This document shows, piece after piece, positions 1 through 24,015 of a DNA stretch of 64,000 bases. The DNA comes from Clostridia bacterium (GTDB lineage Bacteria; Bacillota; Clostridia; RUG12999), in NCBI GenBank assembly GCA_022801925.1, contig JAAWTG010000004.1, forward strand, positions 1-64,000, read 5' to 3'. The position numbers and the translations under genes were made by a program. Below the pieces are notes generated by a model. It searched no databases, was not told the origin of the DNA, and was given only the letters and a program-made list of their open reading frames with translations. Position 1 is the first letter of the stretch; the number at the start of each line of letters is the position of its first letter.

Positions 1-164
1 GAAACCAGTTCGCTCGTAACTGCAAGCACTTCGGCGTACACTTCATTTTTTGCTATGTAATCCAGTTCTTGCTGCAGGCGGATTTTTGCATTTACGTCCG
101 ATGTTTTTTCGGCTAATTTGTCGCTGCAAATTTTTGATAAATTCTGCACCGGTATTTTCATCAT
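1..164 (-). CDS. PolC-like truncated protein, third copy (N-terminus only, cut by window edge)
   Basis: The reading frame begins with two Met codons (ATG at 164-162) and runs off the left edge after 54 complete residues. The peptide is nearly identical to the first 54 residues of the next gene (161-1249), with only a few substitutions (for example Pro-Val for Ser-Ala at residues 5-6). Its ATG overlaps the TGA of that gene (161-163) in an ATGA arrangement, so the two are probably translationally coupled. By analogy with the two complete copies it should be a PolC-derived protein of about 360 residues, but only the N-terminus is visible. Function unknown. Confidence 0.75.
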   Translation of the reverse strand, partial: MMKIPVQNLSKICSDKLAEKTSDVNAKIRLQQELDYIAKNEVYAEVLAVTSELV

Positions 165-1249
165 TTCACATCGCCTCCCATTGCTTGCGTCTCATGTCTG
201 CTCATTACTTCGCGAAATTCCGCCGGATAGTGCGCTTTGAACCATGCCTTACGGTATTTCGCCATTGTCGTGCCGATACAATGCGCCTTCGAGCCCAAAC
301 GACGCCACACCTGATTCAGATTATTGATATATCGCTTGGAAATGCCGGCGTTTAACATCGCCGAGATATACTCCGAGGTACACTTTTCGTCAAGACCACG
401 TATTCCGACGCATTCCATAATGTCATACGCAGTTTCTTTGTCAATGCCGCGGCGCAGCAAATCCAGAAAAATGTCGTCGCGAAACGCGGGCATGTTCGGA
501 ATATCCTTTTTCTCACACGAATAGTCACCGCGTATCCAGCCTTCCGTTCGAACAAGTTCCTCAAAGGTTTTTGGATTTACCATTTGCATAATGCTTCTGC
601 GCCAAAGTTCACTTTCATCCGATTCTTTATCATCAACTTTCATATCGGTAGTCTTCATAATCTCTATGGTTTGCTTGTCGTCAAAAGGAATACTGTAAAT
701 ATCGACTCCGGTCAACTCCGTCAATTCTTTTAACGCCGGATACCCATATGAATTGCCATAAAAACTTAACTTCACTATGCTGCCTGTATCAAATCCATAT
801 GTGTTCCAGTTTGTTGCATCCCCGCTGAAAACCAGCCAACTTGGACGTGTCCCACGGTCAACAATTGGGATATGCGGGTAGTTTTCCTGTACATATTGTT
901 TCAGTATGGGTATAAAATTCACATCAAATGTCATTTCTATATCCCACGACCTATCACCCATAAAAACTTCAACGGGCAGATTGTGTTTCAGCGGGTTTAC
1001 CTCAGTAATGCCGAGCAAAAAGGCAATCAAAGACGAACCCATAAGACCCATAAATCTGCTGTAATACCCCAATTCACGAGAGTACGAAACCAGTTCGCTC
1101 GTAACTGCAAGCACTTCGGCGTACACTTCATTTTTTGCTATGTAATCTAGTTCTTGCTGCAGGCGGCTTTTTGCATTCGCGTCCGATGTTTTTTCAGCTA
1201 ATTTGTCGCTGCAAATTTTTGATAAATTCTGTGCTGATATTTTCATCAT
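161..1249 (-). CDS. Truncated, catalytically altered PolC-like protein (copy 2)
   Basis: This 362-residue protein aligns by eye with the C-terminal polymerase part of Gram-positive DNA polymerase III PolC. Residues 30-87 match the finger/palm entry (RLQQELDYI, then GSSLIAFLLGITEVNPL at 71-87). Later blocks match VRISGLSHGT-type, RDD-IxxxLL-xGI and SKAHxxxxxMAxYRxAWFxxHY-type segments near the C-terminus. PolC (about 1,430 residues) has the exonuclease, PHP and OB domains upstream; none are present here. The catalytic PDIDLNF motif reads WDIEMTF (D103, E105), and the third Asp of the KLDILG motif is Ser162 in KLSFYG, so polymerase activity is not expected. The gene starts 13 nt after the GTPase stop with a TAGGAGG site. 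Role unknown; decoy, regulatory or defence functions are guesses. Confidence 0.85.
   Translation of the reverse strand: MMKISAQNLSKICSDKLAEKTSDANAKSRLQQELDYIAKNEVYAEVLAVTSELVSYSRELGYYSRFMGLMGSSLIAFLLGITEVNPLKHNLPVEVFMGDRSWDIEMTFDVNFIPILKQYVQENYPHIPIVDRGTRPSWLVFSGDATNWNTYGFDTGSIVKLSFYGNSYGYPALKELTELTGVDIYSIPFDDKQTIEIMKTTDMKVDDKESDESELWRRSIMQMVNPKTFEELVRTEGWIRGDYSCEKKDIPNMPAFRDDIFLDLLRRGIDKETAYDIMECVGIRGLDEKCTSEYISAMLNAGISKRYINNLNQVWRRLGSKAHCIGTTMAKYRKAWFKAHYPAEFREVMSRHETQAMGGDVK
1086..1249 (-). repeat. Near-identical direct repeat (PolC-like N-terminal segment)
   Basis: Bases 1086-1249 repeat bases 1-164 with about ten substitutions and no indels seen. Bases 3300-3463 are a third, more diverged copy. 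All three are the 5' ends of the PolC-like genes. The first two copies are much closer to each other than to the third, which points to a recent tandem duplication of the gene at 161-1249. Confidence 0.85.
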
Positions 1250-1262
1250 TTAGCGCCGCCTC

Positions 1263-2264
1263 CTATTGGTTATGCTTCGCAAACAAGCCCTTGAATACCC
1301 CTACAACCGCGCCGGTTATGCCGCCCATTACAGCGCCGACTAACGCGCCAGGCTTACCCAAAACTTCCTGACCGATGGCATAGCCTTTTGTGCCAAATTC
1401 TTCATATGTATCCCAAAAGATGTCCGCGAATGATTTTGAAATCGCTTCCCTGTAATCTTCCTCGTTATCGTCAAACTCCCACATATTCTTATCGTCGTTG
1501 AGGTTTTCGGCAATCGCCATTCTTTTTTCGGCGGGAAGGGATAACACGATGTGATACAGCAGCTTTGTCAGGTTGTAAGGCGCAGCCTGAACACCGTTCT
1601 CGTCGGTATAGCCTGCGGAATAATACATCGGTCTGAACGCAATTCCGGTACCGTCCAGTATTCTTTGCTTGACCGACGCGCATTTCTTCTCCAGAAAATC
1701 TTTCAGCGTCTCGTCGGGACAGTTGTTCTCCTTGTCCCAATGCGTGCCCTTCATAGCCATATCCGCCTGATTTATCGCAATCAGCATACGGTTTGCGTTT
1801 TCCTTTGTCATGGAAGGAATAATGACGTTGTTTATCATCTCATAGGTAGAGTGTAAATCTTTGCTTGACCCGTCAAGGACAACCATTACCAAATCAATGA
1901 TTGGCGTACCGTTTTCGTCAACCTCAGACAGCTTCTTTACAATCTGCGTTGCATAATCCTCGTCCTTTTCGGTCACATCGCCGATTCCGGGCGTGTCCCA
2001 GATTGAAAGATTTTCCAAACGGTAACACTCGATGTCCTTCGTTTCGGGGTCAACGCCTACCCCGACCTCCGCTGTTTTTGTGTTGAAAATCGCGTTGATT
2101 GTTGAACTTTTGCCGCTGCCTGTCGCGCCGACCAGCATCAGATTGATTTTTTGCCCCCGCGCCTTCAACAGCTTGGACAGCTGCCGGTTCTTTTCCTCAG
2201 CGGGAGCGTCCGTTCCCATAATCTCTTCTTCCAGTAAGTCGTAAATGTTCTTCTTTTCGCTCAT
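1263..2264 (-). CDS. P-loop GTPase with C-terminal Gly-rich hydrophobic tail
   Basis: This 333-residue protein has a complete G domain: Walker A/G1 GATGSGKSS at 46-54, G3 DTPG at 90-93 and a G4 variant NQAD at 165-168. It resembles the Era/YfjP-like GTPases often found in accessory regions and the bacterial relatives of IRG proteins. The last 30 residues hold a Gly/Val-rich hydrophobic helix (GAVMGGITGAVVGVF) that could insert in or tether to a membrane. The start at 2264 is chosen because GGAGG lies at 2273-2277; a TTG further upstream would put that site inside the gene. It sits between two PolC-like genes on the same strand and is followed after 13 nt by the second. Substrate and partner unknown; involvement in a joint system with the PolC-like proteins is inference from position. 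Confidence 0.85.
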   Translation of the reverse strand: MSEKKNIYDLLEEEIMGTDAPAEEKNRQLSKLLKARGQKINLMLVGATGSGKSSTINAIFNTKTAEVGVGVDPETKDIECYRLENLSIWDTPGIGDVTEKDEDYATQIVKKLSEVDENGTPIIDLVMVVLDGSSKDLHSTYEMINNVIIPSMTKENANRMLIAINQADMAMKGTHWDKENNCPDETLKDFLEKKCASVKQRILDGTGIAFRPMYYSAGYTDENGVQAAPYNLTKLLYHIVLSLPAEKRMAIAENLNDDKNMWEFDDNEEDYREAISKSFADIFWDTYEEFGTKGYAIGQEVLGKPGALVGAVMGGITGAVVGVFKGLFAKHNQ

Positions 2265-2318
2265 TTGTACTACCTCCAAAAAATAATTATTTCCGACAGT
2301 CCGCCTGTCTTGTCTTTA

Positions 2319-2352
2319 ATTATAATGGAGGCGATGGACAATAACTGTCCAT
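2319..2352 (-). promoter_or_regulatory. Promoter -10 and palindromic operator upstream of the GTPase gene
   Basis: On the minus strand a TATAAT -10 lies at 2324-2319. A perfect dyad, ATGGACA-ATAAC-TGTCCAT (2334-2352), covers the position of the -35 box, where no good TTGACA is present. A closely similar dyad with the same spacing to its -10 occurs at 4184-4228. This suggests a shared repressor or activator site. Confidence 0.55.
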
Positions 2353-2365
2353 TCAAAAATAAAAT

Positions 2366-3463
2366 TTAAAAAAGTTTTTCTTTTTTTCTTTTCATCACTT
2401 TTTGAAATTCCTCCGCATAGTGCGCTTCAAACCATGCCATGCGGTATTCTGCCATAGTCAAAGCAATACAGTGCGCTTTCGAGAACAAATACTTCACCTG
2501 CTTCAGATTATCTATATACTGCTTGGAAATGCCGGCGTTTGACAGCACCGAGGTATACTCTTCGGTCAACCCTTTTCCTTTTCGGACACAATCCATTATT
2601 TCATACGCCGTTACTCTGTCAATGCCGCTGTTCAGTAAGTATAGGAAAACATCATCCCGAAACGCGGGCATATTTGAAATATCCTTTGGCGCACACTGAT
2701 ACGTGCCGTGTATCCAACCTGACATTTGAATAAGGTCTTCAAATGTACCTGGATTTACAAGTTGCCTAATTTTACAACGTTCCAAATTCAATTTTTCATC
2801 GCCATAGTCTATATCGGCAGTTTTCATAACTTCTATTGTCTGCTTGTCATCAAAAGAAATACTGTAAATATCCACTCCGGTCAACTCCGACAATACATTT
2901 AACGCCGTGGTATGTGGCTGACCACCAAATGAAAGTTTGATCACATTTTTTTGGTCAAATTTATCGGTATTCCGGTTTGTTGCACCTTCCCGGAAACCTA
3001 AGCAACAATACCGAAGCGGTTCAACGGTAAGTATTGCCACAGTACACGGTATATCCTCACGCGATATTATTGCTATATGCGGGTAGTTTTCTCGCATATA
3101 GCGTTTAGCCATAGGTATAAAACGCATATCAAACTTCAATTCTATATCCAACGGCTTATCATTATGAACCCCCATAAAGACTTCAACTGGCAGATTGTAT
3201 TTCAGCGGATCTATCTCAGTAATGCCAAGCAAAAAGGCAATCAAAGACGAACCGAGGCAGCCGAAAAATCTGCTGTAATATCCCAATTCGCGAGAGTATG
3301 AAACCAGTTCGCTTGCAACTGCAAACACCTCGGCATATGTTTCATTCTTTTCTATGTAATCCAGTTCTTGTTGCAGGCGGATTTTGGCATTCGCGTCCGT
3401 CGTTTTTTCAAACAATTTGTCAGTGCAAATTTTTGATAGATTCTGTGCTGTTATTTTAATCAT
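2366..3463 (-). CDS. Truncated, catalytically altered PolC-like protein (copy 1)
   Basis: This 365-residue protein is the most PolC-like of the three. Matching blocks are GSSLIAFLLGITEIDPL (71-87), LDIELKF (105-111), LTGVDIYSISFDD (195-207, compare LSGIDPKTIPxDD), VNPGTFEDLIQMSGWIHGT (236-254), RDDVFLYLLNSGID (269-282), DCVRKGKGL (291-299) and KAHCIALTMAEYRMAWFEAHY (329-349). PolC's PDIDLNF is LDIELKF (second Asp to Glu108) and its KLDILG is KLSFGG (Asp to Ser178), so it should be inactive as a polymerase. The zinc-binding cysteine segment of PolC is missing between 88 and 104. AGGAGA precedes the ATG and a consensus promoter lies at 3489-3517. It is divergent from the XRE regulator gene, which may control it. 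Confidence 0.87.
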   Translation of the reverse strand: MIKITAQNLSKICTDKLFEKTTDANAKIRLQQELDYIEKNETYAEVFAVASELVSYSRELGYYSRFFGCLGSSLIAFLLGITEIDPLKYNLPVEVFMGVHNDKPLDIELKFDMRFIPMAKRYMRENYPHIAIISREDIPCTVAILTVEPLRYCCLGFREGATNRNTDKFDQKNVIKLSFGGQPHTTALNVLSELTGVDIYSISFDDKQTIEVMKTADIDYGDEKLNLERCKIRQLVNPGTFEDLIQMSGWIHGTYQCAPKDISNMPAFRDDVFLYLLNSGIDRVTAYEIMDCVRKGKGLTEEYTSVLSNAGISKQYIDNLKQVKYLFSKAHCIALTMAEYRMAWFEAHYAEEFQKVMKRKKEKLF

Positions 3464-3584: not shown

Positions 3585-3920
3585 ATGGACTATATGAGGT
3601 TAGGGCAACGGATTCGCGAAGAACGCCTGCGGCTAAACTTAACGCAAGCAGCTCTCGCCGAATCGGTAGATATTTCTGACACCTATATGGGTGCAATAGA
3701 ACGCGGAGAGCGCAGTCTCACACTGGGTACCCTTGTAAGAATTGTAAATCGGCTCGGCGTGACAATCGATTATTTGTTGGCCGATTCTGTTTCCGACAGC
3801 GATTTAAATATCATGGAACAGTTCAAACAGATTATAGACGGTCAGCCTTTGGAACGGAAGCAATGGGCAATCTCCGTACTGCGCTCTATGTTTTCTTACT
3901 TTGACAAAGAGGAATCTTAA
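3585..3920 (+). CDS. XRE-family HTH transcriptional regulator
   Basis: This 111-residue protein has a Cro/C1-type helix-turn-helix in its N-terminal 65 residues: LGQRIREERLRLNLTQ, then ALAESVDISDTYMGAIERG and LVRIVNRLGVTIDYLL. The short C-terminal tail could be for dimerisation. The start at 3585 is chosen because AGGGGTGA lies just upstream and the HTH begins directly after it; an in-frame ATG 201 nt upstream would run through the divergent promoter. It is divergent from the PolC-like gene and convergent with the 59-aa gene, and probably controls one or both. The three GGGGT boxes in the divergent region are candidate operators. The effector is unknown. Confidence 0.9.
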   Translation: MDYMRLGQRIREERLRLNLTQAALAESVDISDTYMGAIERGERSLTLGTLVRIVNRLGVTIDYLLADSVSDSDLNIMEQFKQIIDGQPLERKQWAISVLRSMFSYFDKEES

Positions 3921-3935
3921 AATGATTCCTCTTTT
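3906..3935. terminator. Bidirectional terminator formed by overlapping gene ends
   Basis: AAAGAGGAATC (3906-3916), loop TTAAAAT, GATTCCTCTTT (3924-3934) is a perfect 11-bp hairpin with A/T runs on both sides. It contains the last codons of both convergent genes, whose stop codons overlap at 3917-3920. Confidence 0.75.
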
Positions 3936-4096
3936 ATCTTGCCCTCACGCAGCTCTCGAATCAATGTAACATCGTCTATCAAGCGTTTTATTGCTAAATT
4001 GACAAGCAGATCGACAGACACAGAATACTCAGCTGCAAGTATATGCAGTTCGTCATAGAGCATGGGATTTGTGAGACACACCTTGAAATTTTCCAT
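3917..4096 (-). CDS. Small protein of 59 aa, possibly ribbon-helix-helix
   Basis: A 59-residue protein starting at 4096, where a perfect AAGGAGGTG lies 8 nt upstream. A longer in-frame version from 4174 lacks such a site and would use this region as coding, so I prefer the short form. It begins MENFKVCLTNPMLYDEL and continues with two predicted amphipathic helices (LHILAAEYSVSVDLLVNLAIKRLIDD), a pattern seen in Arc/MetJ-type small DNA-binding proteins, but I see no decisive motif. The promoter overlaps a large palindrome at 4184-4228. It is convergent with the XRE gene. It may be a second regulator or an antitoxin-like protein; function not known. Confidence 0.7.
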   Translation of the reverse strand: MENFKVCLTNPMLYDELHILAAEYSVSVDLLVNLAIKRLIDDVTLIRELREGKIKEESF

Positions 4097-4180
4097 TAAA
4101 TATACACCTCCTTCATGGCGTTCGGTCAAAGTATAAATCATACGTTTTTTATCTGCATCTTGGGTTACTCTCATATATTT

Positions 4181-4228
4181 ATTATAACGCAGGGGTGTGG
4201 ACAGAAATTGTCCACACCTCTGCGTTAT
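4181..4228 (-). promoter_or_regulatory. Large palindrome overlapping the promoter of the 59-aa gene
   Basis: A 20-bp arm (4184-4203) and its complement (4209-4228) are separated by GAAAT, with a single G/A difference between arms. The core is TGGACA-N5-TGTCCA (4198-4214). On the minus strand a TATAAT -10 lies at 4186-4181, so the dyad centre falls near -35, as for the dyad at 2334-2352. It could also fold as a hairpin in RNA reading through from either side. Confidence 0.65.
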
Positions 4229-4257
4229 ATAATTATTACTCCAAATAAAATAAATTT

Positions 4258-4284
4258 CCCCTCTGCCATCATGCGGCAGAGGGG
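4258..4284. other. GC-rich perfect hairpin
   Basis: CCCCTCTGCC (4258-4267), a 7-nt loop, GGCAGAGGGG (4275-4284). There is no clear U-run on either side, so a terminator role is uncertain. Confidence 0.5.
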
Positions 4285-4516
4285 ATGATTGTATTATACC
4301 ATAAGCAGAATATATAAGTTTGAGCCTTTCATATACTTTTTCAAAAATAGGTTTTGATATATGTTGATATATTGCTGCAATCTATGAAGCAGTTGGAAAG
4401 AAAGGAACTATATTTGACAAAATAAGTGGATTATGATAAACTGTATAAAAAGAAACAACCTGTTGAAAGTCGCATAAATAAAGGCGTTTATTGCAATGCG
4501 AGGGAGTAAAAGGTTT

Positions 4517-4532
4517 CCCTCCTTCTCCGCCA
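4517..4532 (+). other. tRNA-Ser 3'-end remnant, candidate attachment site
   Basis: CCCTCCTTCTCCGCCA has the form of the last T-stem bases, 7-base acceptor strand (CTTCTCC), discriminator G and CCA of a bacterial tRNA-Ser. No T-loop consensus or 5' part of a tRNA precedes it, so it is not a working tRNA. A strong terminator follows at 4539, as expected behind a tRNA gene. This is what integrase-mediated insertion of an island at a tRNA-Ser gene leaves at one end. Confidence 0.5.
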
Positions 4533-4637: not shown

Positions 4638-4794
4638 AGAATGAAATATGAACACGAGTGCCGTAAACGCATGGGAGCGCTAAGGAGAAGAAAGAATGGC
4701 TTAAAACTATGGCTTTAGACCTATTTTTTATTTTAACATATTCATGATAGATTCCAATTGTAATTGAAAAAACAGAATAGAGAGGGACGAAACA

Positions 4795-20905: not shown

Positions 20906-21301
20906 ATGAGAAAATTTAAAATTAACGTAAACAATAAATCCTATGAGGTTGAAGTAGAAGAAATCGGCGGCACACCCGTAGCAACTCCTGCACCTGTGGC
21001 AGCACCGGCAGCTCCGGCTGCGGCGGCTGCGGCTCCCGCACCTGCGTCGGCTCCGGCTGCAAAACCGGCAGCAGCGGCACCGGCGGGCGCAACAAAAGTG
21101 AATGCGCCAATGCCCGGTACCATTGTAAGTGTGAATGTGTCCAATGGTCAGAGCGTGAAAAAAGGCGATGTTCTCTGCATCCTGGAAGCAATGAAAATGG
21201 AAAACGAAATCGTAGCGCCAAGTGACGGTACGGTTGCGGCAGTTCTGGTGGACAAAGGCGCGTCTGTCAACAGCGGCGATGCACTGATTGCGCTGGGCTG
21301 A
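20906..21301 (+). CDS. mmdC: Biotin carboxyl carrier subunit
   Basis: A 131-residue protein: a short N-terminal beta segment (1-22), an Ala/Pro-rich flexible linker (23-62) and a biotinyl domain (63-131) with the biotinylation motif AMKM at 95-98 (Lys97). It carries CO2 from the carboxyltransferase to the membrane decarboxylase. It follows the gamma gene by 20 nt with AGAGGAGG upstream. It is the only biotin domain in the cluster, so both carboxyltransferases (18917 and 22588) would have to use it. Confidence 0.95.
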   Translation: MRKFKINVNNKSYEVEVEEIGGTPVATPAPVAAPAAPAAAAAAPAPASAPAAKPAAAAPAGATKVNAPMPGTIVSVNVSNGQSVKKGDVLCILEAMKMENEIVAPSDGTVAAVLVDKGASVNSGDALIALG

Positions 21302-21348
21302 TAGTGGACTGCGAATCCGAAAAATAAACACAGAAAGGGTGTAGAGGT

Positions 21349-22557
21349 TTGAACGATTTTTTGATGGGGATTCAAAACTTTGCTGCCAAATCAGGAATCG
21401 CACAAATCCTGGCGGGAGACTGGAAAGTGCTGATTATGATTGCAATTGCCTGTGTGCTGCTCTATTTGGCAATTGTGAAAAAGTTTGAACCATTACTGTT
21501 GCTGCCCATTGCGTTTGGTATGCTGATTGCCAATCTGCCGCTGGGCGGTGTGATGCATAAAGAATATTTTACGGCGGAAGGCATTAATTTTGCCAAAATG
21601 ATAAAAGAAGGCGGGCTGATTGACTGGCTCTATTTAGGCGTTAAGCTTGGCATTTATCCGCCGCTGATTTTTCTTGGTGTGGGCGCAATGACGGATTTCG
21701 GTCCGTTGATTGCAAACCCCAAAAGTATTTTGCTGGGCGCGGCAGCGCAGCTTGGTATTTTTATTGCTTTTATCGGCGCAATGCTGCTGGGCGGATTCTT
21801 TCCGGAACAGTTCGCGCAGTTTGATATCAACGGCGCGGCGGCAATCGGTATCATTGGCGGTGCCGACGGGCCGACAGCAATTTACGTAACCAAAACGCTG
21901 AAACCGGAACTGCTGAGTATGATTGCGATTGCAGCATATTCCTATATGGCGTTGATTCCGATTATCCAGCCGCCGATTATGAAGTTGTTGACAACGAAAA
22001 AAGAGCGCGTTATTGTGATGGAACAGCTCCGTCCGGTATCCAAAACGGAAAAAATCATTTTCCCGATTGTGGTAACGCTGGTTGTGGCGTTGATTATTCC
22101 GGACGCGGTTCCGTTGGTCGGTATGCTGATGTTAGGTAATTTGATGAAGGAAAGCGGCGTTGTATCGCGTATTTCCAACACAGCGCAAAATGAACTGATG
22201 AACATTATCACCATTTTCTTAGGGATTTCCGTTGGCGCAACGGCAGACGCAGAAACGTTCCTGACGCCCGCAACGCTTGGTATTGTGGTGCTGGGACTAT
22301 GTGCGTTCTGCTTGAGTACGGCGGGCGGCGTTCTGTTTGGAAAAATCATGTGCAAACTCAGCGGCGGCAAAATCAATCCGCTGATTGGTTCCGCCGGCGT
22401 ATCTGCCGTACCGATGGCGGCGCGTGTGTCTCAAGTGGTGGGACAAAAAGAAAATCCGGCAAACTTTTTGCTCATGCACGCAATGGGGCCGAATGTGGCG
22501 GGCGTTATCGGTTCCGCTGTGGCGGCGGGCGTGTTCTTGTCAATGCTGGCAAACTAA
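21349..22557 (+). CDS. mmdB: Na+-transporting decarboxylase beta subunit (OadB/MmdB)
   Basis: A 402-residue polytopic membrane protein with about nine to eleven hydrophobic segments. The family's conserved Asp block is [15 protein letters not shown] and the Ser block is [16 protein letters not shown], both implicated in Na+/H+ handling in OadB. It decarboxylates carboxybiotin and exports Na+. The start is TTG at 21349, behind AAAGGGTG; an ATG at 21364 is the alternative. Length is a little above the roughly 375-residue MmdB norm. Confidence 0.94.
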
Positions 22558-22587
22558 TAAACTGACGATGAATGGAGGGAAATCATC

Positions 22588-24015
22588 ATGGCGAATGAAG
22601 CTAAGAAAAAAGTCGGTATCACCGAAACCGTCCTGCGTGACGCGCATCAATCACTGATTGCAACACGTATGACAACGGAAGAAATGCTGCCGATTATTGA
22701 TAAAATGGATGAAATCGGATATCACTCTCTGGAAGCGTGGGGCGGCGCAACGTTTGATTCCTGCCTGCGTTTCTTAAACGAGGACCCGTGGGAAAGACTG
22801 CGGAAAATCAAAGATAAAGCGAAGAAAACACCGCTGCAAATGCTGTTCCGTGGACAGAATATTCTGGGATACAAGCATTACGCAGATGATGTTGTGGAAT
22901 ATTTTGTGCAGAAATCTTTGGCAAACGGAATGGATATCATTCGTATTTTTGATGCGCTTAATGATATCAGAAACTTGAGAACAGCCATTGAGGCAACGAA
23001 AAAATATGCAAAACAAGAGGGGCGCGGACATGTACAGGCAACCCTGTGTTACACGACCAGCCCAGTGCATAATGTGGAATCTTTCACAAAATTGGCAAAA
23101 GAACTGGAAAGCATGGGCGCAGATTCTATCTGTATCAAAGATATGGCTGCATTACTCACACCATATACGGCGTATGATTTAGTGAAAGCAATTAAGAGTG
23201 AAGTGAAAGTGCCGGTACAACTGCATACGCATTTCACCAGCGGCGTAGGCGATATGACCTATTTGAAAGCGATTGAAGCGGGTGTTGACGTGATTGATAC
23301 GGCAATTTCACCCATGGCAATGGGAACCTCCCAGCCGGCAACAGAGCCGATTGTGGCAACGCTGCAGGGAACAGAATATGATACCGGTCTGGATTTGGTG
23401 AAACTGAATGAAATTGCAAACTATTTTAAACCGCTGAGACAGAAATATCTGGATTCCGGACTGATGAAACAGAAAATGTTGGAAGTGGATATCAACGCAT
23501 TGATGTATCAGGTGCCGGGCGGAATGCTGTCCAACCTGTATTCTCAGTTGGAACAGCAGGGTAAAACTGATAAATTTGAAGAAGTGTTGCAGGAAGTGCC
23601 GCGCGTGAGAGAAGATTTCGGTTATCCGCCGCTGGTAACACCATCTAGCCAGATTGTTGGTACGCAGGCGGTTCTGAACGTATTGGCGGGCGAACGCTAT
23701 AAAATGATTAGTAAAGAATCCAAAGGCGTTGTCCGTGGGGAATACGGAAAAACACCGGTGCCGATTAGCGATGAAATCCGCAAAAAAATCATTGGGGACG
23801 AGGAACCTATCACTTGCCGTCCGGCAGATTTAATCAAACCGGAACTGCAACAGATGGAAAGCGAAATGAAAGAATGGAAAGAACAGGATGAAGACGTTTT
23901 GTCCTATGCACTGTTTGGTCAGGTCGCTGAGAAATATTTTGAATTCAGACGGGCACAGAAATATAAAATTGACGGCGATATGGTCGACATGGAAAACATG
24001 ACGCACCCCATCTAA
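22588..24015 (+). CDS. Oxaloacetate decarboxylase/pyruvate carboxyltransferase subunit without biotin domain
   Basis: A 475-residue member of the OadA/PycB/5S transcarboxylase family: ITETVLRDAHQS (Asp18), LFRGQNILGYKHYADDVV, CIKDMAALLTPY and metal ligands in LHTHFTSGVGD. Full-length OadA is near 590 residues with a C-terminal biotinyl domain; this protein ends before it, like the 5S subunit of Propionibacterium transcarboxylase. It carboxylates pyruvate or decarboxylates oxaloacetate using carboxybiotin on the separate carrier at 20906. GGAGGG precedes the ATG, 30 nt after mmdB. A terminator follows. Confidence 0.92.
   Translation: MANEAKKKVGITETVLRDAHQSLIATRMTTEEMLPIIDKMDEIGYHSLEAWGGATFDSCLRFLNEDPWERLRKIKDKAKKTPLQMLFRGQNILGYKHYADDVVEYFVQKSLANGMDIIRIFDALNDIRNLRTAIEATKKYAKQEGRGHVQATLCYTTSPVHNVESFTKLAKELESMGADSICIKDMAALLTPYTAYDLVKAIKSEVKVPVQLHTHFTSGVGDMTYLKAIEAGVDVIDTAISPMAMGTSQPATEPIVATLQGTEYDTGLDLVKLNEIANYFKPLRQKYLDSGLMKQKMLEVDINALMYQVPGGMLSNLYSQLEQQGKTDKFEEVLQEVPRVREDFGYPPLVTPSSQIVGTQAVLNVLAGERYKMISKESKGVVRGEYGKTPVPISDEIRKKIIGDEEPITCRPADLIKPELQQMESEMKEWKEQDEDVLSYALFGQVAEKYFEFRRAQKYKIDGDMVDMENMTHPI

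Follow-up and report, generated by a model that had tools for sequence, protein, structure and literature searches.

Why would a bacterium carry a row of small genes that resemble its replicative DNA polymerase, and what could their products still do? The question is raised by a contig of a gut Clostridia bacterium, the first 64,000 nucleotides of which (G000:C5:1-64000, called the window here) begin with at least three tandem PolC-like genes on the minus strand. Two are complete open reading frames (ORFs), namely copy A, with a product of 365 amino acids (2366-3463), and copy B, with one of 362 amino acids (161-1249). Their proteins are 65% identical, and a GTPase gene is placed between them. 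Of the third gene, copy C, the 5' end with 54 codons is present (1-164). Because base 1 of the window is also base 1 of contig C5, copy C is cut at the contig end and not just by the window; its continuation was not found elsewhere in the assembly. We consider the copies to be a new pseudopolymerase family.

Relationship to PolC and changes at the active site

Copies A and B matched PF07733 (E values of 8.8e-19 and 1.8e-14, respectively) and the NCBIfam PolC model (2.3e-43 and 8.3e-29), and a profile made from the two matched Geobacillus PolC (3f2b) at 2.7e-29. AlphaFold2 models of both, computed without templates from alignments that included four PolCs from viral contigs, had a predicted local distance difference test (pLDDT) score of 80 and a predicted template modelling (pTM) score of 0.84. 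The predicted folds matched residues 826-1314 of Geobacillus PolC with Z of 30-32 and a root-mean-square deviation of 2.7-3.0 over 342-346 residues. It is almost certain that these proteins of about 360 residues derive from the palm and fingers of a PolC. A preliminary description of the locus, made from the sequence, had already called them truncated PolC paralogues, and both the profile matches and the structural comparison with the PolC palm and fingers that it had proposed bear this out. The host has its own PolC on contig C61 and DnaE on C65, and the copies are only about 30% identical to the host PolC. In a tree, a stem branch of about seven changes per site separates them from true PolCs. 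The start of the copies, LSKICxDK, resembles that of PolCs from mobile elements (LRKICYDK, in L040 and L041), and a phage origin was considered and dropped, as a tree with such a stem cannot place them.

The catalytic motifs were compared in an alignment of copies A and B, and copy A of a second locus described below, with host, clostridial, and plasmid or phage PolCs. The PDIDLNF of PolC has become LDIELKF or WDIEMTF, and KLDILG has become KLSFGG or KLSFYG. In all three complete copies the first catalytic aspartate is kept, the second is changed conservatively to glutamate, and the third is replaced by serine. The earlier claim that two of the three aspartates were lost in the same way in both complete copies is thus upheld by the alignment, and no homologue retaining all three was encountered. 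This identical change reflects common descent and not repeated independent loss. All three have also lost RAGTIGT, PEFGT, and the zinc-binding thumb insert, and TGQHPGG is degenerate. Protein length and alignment show that the OB, DnaQ-type exonuclease, PHP, thumb, and C-terminal domains are missing as well. The preliminary description had recognized the absence of the exonuclease, PHP, and OB domains; it had overlooked the losses of the zinc thumb, RAGTIGT, and PEFGT. What is left is a scaffold with neither thumb nor metal site, which cannot act as a polymerase by the known mechanism.

Some of the nucleotide-binding surface has been retained. The G-GSS, RD, and K and H (KAH) residues are kept in all three copies. 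Among the nucleobase-pocket residues of PolC that PMC12592400 names (H1185, F1276, H1280, and Y1284), H1280 is kept in every copy, F1276 in two of three, H1185 in one, and Y1284 in none. A reduced palm of this kind could be a new nucleotidyltransferase-like enzyme or a nucleotide sensor that uses the GSS, RD, and KAH of the triphosphate site, and its resemblance to beta-type nucleotidyltransferases (Z of 5-7), like the kept residues, would fit this idea. However, scores of that size are common background, two of the three metal ligands are changed (to E and S), and three of the four pocket residues are not kept across the copies, so that we regard such an enzyme or sensor as very improbable. 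A similarity to nucleotidyltransferases of the cGAS/Cid1 type was rejected because its Z of 5-7 was likewise background.

A second locus and the evolution of the copies

When 84,980 species genomes were scanned for the pattern, a single additional locus came up, L053, which is a Clostridia contig of 4.3 kb from iMGMC. Its gene order is that of the window: a gene for an 85-amino-acid protein, an XRE regulator gene, copy A, the GTPase, copy B, and the start of copy C (4085-4297, with the same start as in the window). The L053 contig likewise ends within copy C, which would be expected if assemblers break at the repeats. Searches of 391 genomes of the class, 398 genomes of the phylum, viral contigs, phages, and plasmids returned only true PolC and DnaE, besides one protein from a Cetobacterium plasmid. 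This 914-amino-acid hypothetical protein (L038, 3768-6512) is 23% identical over 90% of the length of the PolC-like protein and is probably a diverged C-family polymerase.

Between the two loci there is little or no sequence difference from midway through the GTPase gene to the end of copy B; the upstream parts differ. Synonymous divergence (dS) between the loci is 0.63 for copy A and 0.48 for the XRE gene, and within the GTPase gene it drops from 0.55 (5' half) to 0.03 (3' half). Identity jumps from about 90% to 100% inside the GTPase gene, near position 1860 of the window and 2400 of L053, and this breakpoint between two assemblies may reflect either recombination or chimeric assembly. We had considered copy A to be uniquely hypervariable and rejected this, since the XRE gene and the 5' half of the GTPase gene have diverged too, and only the nonsynonymous divergence (dN) of copy A is exceptional.

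Copy A, compared between the two loci, has a ratio of dN to dS (omega) of 0.27 (bootstrap 0.19-0.37). The value is 0.055 (0.03-0.09) for neighbouring genes of comparable dS and 0.39-0.43 for paralogues compared with each other. For the same region of true PolC within the genus, at dS of 0.15 and 0.70, omega is 0.005-0.006. At equal dS, the protein divergence of copy A is thus about five times that of its neighbours and about fifty times that of true PolC. Within the copy A pair, the N-terminal codons 1-120 are the most constrained (dN 0.06-0.11), and codons 121-210, the remnant of the palm, the least. Between copy A of L053 and copy B of the window, dS is about 0.5 or higher in most of the gene and falls to 0.16-0.18 in codons 211-300, a drop that suggests gene conversion or recombination between copies.

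These rates indicate that the copies are real genes that evolve fast under purifying selection, and because their divergence is constrained in this way (omega of 0.27), they are not dying pseudogenes. The preliminary description had said as much, and the intact frames, an omega of 0.27-0.43, and the existence of L053 now speak for it. If the copies were instead relics, truncated from a phage or plasmid PolC, duplicated, and now decaying, the long stem of the tree and an omega far above that of true PolC would be accounted for. Three intact frames in two loci, the omega values themselves, the conserved N-terminal region, and the conservation of promoter-like and operator-like sites are all at odds with decay, and we strongly disfavour this explanation.

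The GTPase, its regulation, and the mobile island

The gene between copies A and B (1263-2264, minus strand) encodes a 333-amino-acid GTPase with intact G1 (GxxGxGKS), G3 (DTPG), and G4 (NQxD) motifs. Profile and structure matches place it among the TRAFAC-type GTPases, with immunity-related GTPases, GIMAP4, and septins as the nearest solved structures. It ends in a glycine-zipper tail, as do all ten homologues examined, which suggests insertion into a membrane. Relatives were found in four of 390 other genomes of the class (61-46% identity) and on proteobacterial plasmids (40-47% identity). They often precede a second GTPase of about 230 amino acids, and some adjoin cas1/cas2/csm6 or restriction genes on plasmids. 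On a Photobacterium plasmid (L070, 6001-12990), for example, paired GIMAP-like GTPases lie beside csm6, cas1, and cas2, with a further GTPase downstream.

The GTPase gene is followed after 13 nucleotides, which include a ribosome-binding site, by copy B, whose stop codon shares the sequence ATGA with the start codon of copy C, so that the three look like a single transcript. Copy A and the GTPase each have their own promoter-like site. The consensus promoter reported earlier before copy A is present on the minus strand as TTGACA-17-TATGAT (3517-3489), recognized by its match to the consensus. The palindrome GGACA-N5-TGTCC occurs twice in the window, against 0.03 expected, and both occurrences recur in L053. 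One (2336-2350) lies 11 nucleotides upstream of a perfect TATAAT for the GTPase, and the other (4199-4213) lies 12 nucleotides upstream of a perfect TATAAT for the 85-amino-acid gene. Since the same operator-like palindrome precedes both promoters and is conserved in L053, these two genes are likely to be co-regulated. The 85-amino-acid protein (3917-4174, minus strand) is ribbon-helix-helix-like by the shape of its sequence, has no Pfam match, and is conserved in L053. Its gene lies tail to tail with that of the XRE/HTH_3 regulator (3585-3920, plus strand), identified by a profile match and divergent from copy A. ORFs and profile matches confirm the arrangement previously described, with a GTPase between copies and a divergent XRE gene.

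The array is at the edge of what appears to be an integrative element. Two other genomes of the genus (94% and 84% identity) match the right flank collinearly from position 4731 on but lack the array, and in one of them (G002) tRNA-Ser(GCU) precedes the same flank. Sixteen nucleotides of the 3' end of this tRNA are found at 4517-4532 (plus strand), an attachment-site-like copy that would mark the right end of the element. The intact tRNA is on contig C8 (22733-22824) and is adjoined by a large serine recombinase gene (21032-22630). Contig C8 starts within a WYL regulator gene that points the same way as the array. All this is most simply explained by a single element, at least 27 kb long, that has the array at one end and whose sequence between C5:1 and C8:1 is missing from the assembly. 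If C5 and C8 are joined as we infer, the element has attachment-site repeats at both ends and a recombinase, as expected of integrative elements. These features indicate that an integrative element inserted in tRNA-Ser(GCU) carries the PolC-like locus as cargo.

The C8 arm of the element encodes the WYL regulator, a 292-amino-acid protein, an AAA ATPase, a glycine-zipper protein, and a cluster of ubiquitin-like (Ubl), JAB-like, ThiF, and retron-like reverse transcriptase genes. The first four, in which the glycine-zipper protein has about 500 amino acids, form a conserved module (L064, 1-4819; L080, 9625-14500), and in another genome, G101, this module is followed by two dynamin-like GTPases. 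The cluster (L064, on C8, 6101-10717) comprises genes for a ubiquitin-like protein of 79 amino acids, a 483-amino-acid protein, a JAB-like protein of 257 amino acids, a ThiF/E1 protein, and a retron St85-like reverse transcriptase, the ubiquitin-like and JAB calls having been made by eye. It is possibly a separate defence system.

With the array at one end of a tRNA-Ser element and a serine recombinase at the other, the locus might serve the element itself: by attaching to the PolC replisome of the host, its proteins would control the replication, excision, or copy number of the island. XRE and ribbon-helix-helix-like regulators are typical of element control regions. However, no replication initiator was identified among the annotated genes, the GTPase family is found on unrelated plasmids and islands, and element control genes are usually neither multiplied nor fast-evolving. 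Such a housekeeping role seems improbable to us.

Proposed function and comparison with known systems

The PolC-like proteins would no longer copy DNA, yet they resemble the working face of PolC, and they would most likely affect replication through mimicry. Their target may be a partner or substrate of the PolC-type replisomes used by phages or plasmids that enter the cell, or an anti-PolC factor, and on binding it they would serve as decoys, sensors, or dominant negatives. Once the locus is induced, its likeliest effector or switch would be the GTPase with its putative membrane tail. On the strength of the mobile-island setting, the fast evolution of the copies, and the type of GTPase, we tentatively propose, as our best guess but one that falls short of being probable, that the locus is a replication-targeting module with which the island takes part in conflicts with phages or plasmids. 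Its PolC-like proteins would be decoys, sensors, or dominant negatives, and the signal may pass through the GTPase. A bolder form of this idea is a new kind of replication-targeting immunity, in which dead PolC look-alikes, multiplying and changing fast, are decoy or bait for anti-PolC proteins or for the replication factors of phages, and the response comes from a membrane GTPase of the GIMAP/IRG-like kind. This we rate as unlikely.

Several observations weigh against this proposal. Only two contigs, perhaps both from mouse-gut assemblies, are known to carry the PolC-like family, and fast evolution can equally mean relaxed constraint. Residues 136-171, in the middle of copy A, are poorly predicted. 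Among the PADLOC 2.0 models, one PolC-like protein had no match and the other matched only RT_UG13a at an E value of 0.015, which is not a meaningful score; the GTPase had only partial matches to LeoA/LeoBC G domains. Among the GTPase homologues examined, a PolC-like neighbour is present only in the window and L053 (several of the other contigs end near the GTPase). This suggests that the GTPase needs no PolC-like partner, and the two kinds of protein may act apart. The linkage put forward in the preliminary description therefore stands in part: it is kept in L053 and was not seen at the homologues in four Clostridia genomes and several proteobacterial plasmids. The pairing appears to be local, with conservation seen only in the two known loci.

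These same GTPase homologues, together with the separate promoter-like sites of copy A and the GTPase, would suit pseudopolymerases that affect PolC-type replication by themselves, as dominant negatives or decoys, with the GTPase as unrelated cargo among them. Against this, the GTPase and copies B and C look like one transcript, and their order is kept in L053, so that we regard action by the pseudopolymerases alone as somewhat unlikely.

A gene family of this kind would show that evolution has turned PolC, an essential replicase and antibiotic target, into proteins that are not polymerases, and being small, these are easily tried as binders of PolC or the replisome. If the proposed module does act against phages, immunity through mimicry of a replicase would be seen for the first time, with a bacterial relative of the immunity GTPases of animals as its partner.

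A literature search found no paper on inactive truncated PolC or on a minimal dead C-family polymerase kept as a gene family. In the portions of a 2026 survey of 3,070 genomes on which we draw (PMC12926913), the C family has four listed groups, none of them inactive, and inactive groups are described for families Y and X; sequences that were truncated or had diverged strongly were dropped there before trees were built. The inactivated polymerases treated in those portions, ImuB of the Y family and PolX1 with its substituted polymerase site, likewise retain a polymerase fold after the loss of catalysis. The PolC-like copies differ from them in belonging to the C family, in being far smaller, and in forming a tandem array on a mobile island.

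Compared with PolC itself (Geobacillus 3F2B/3F2C and Enterococcus 9QPC), the copies have the same palm and fingers fold and keep G-GSS, RD, and KAH. However, they have about 360 residues where PolC has about 1,450, they are without the OB, exonuclease, and PHP domains, the zinc thumb, and the C-terminal DNA-binding part, and they carry D-x-E and KLS in place of the catalytic D-x-D and KLD. The GTPase, in contrast, is a plain member of the bacterial AIG1/GIMAP/IRG-like GTPases (40-61% identical; from Photobacterium, Acinetobacter, Comamonas, and Proteus plasmids and from Clostridia), which are annotated as "GTPase" and have the same G motifs and tail. Where a second GTPase of about 230 amino acids follows in these relatives, the PolC-like copies hold that place in the window.

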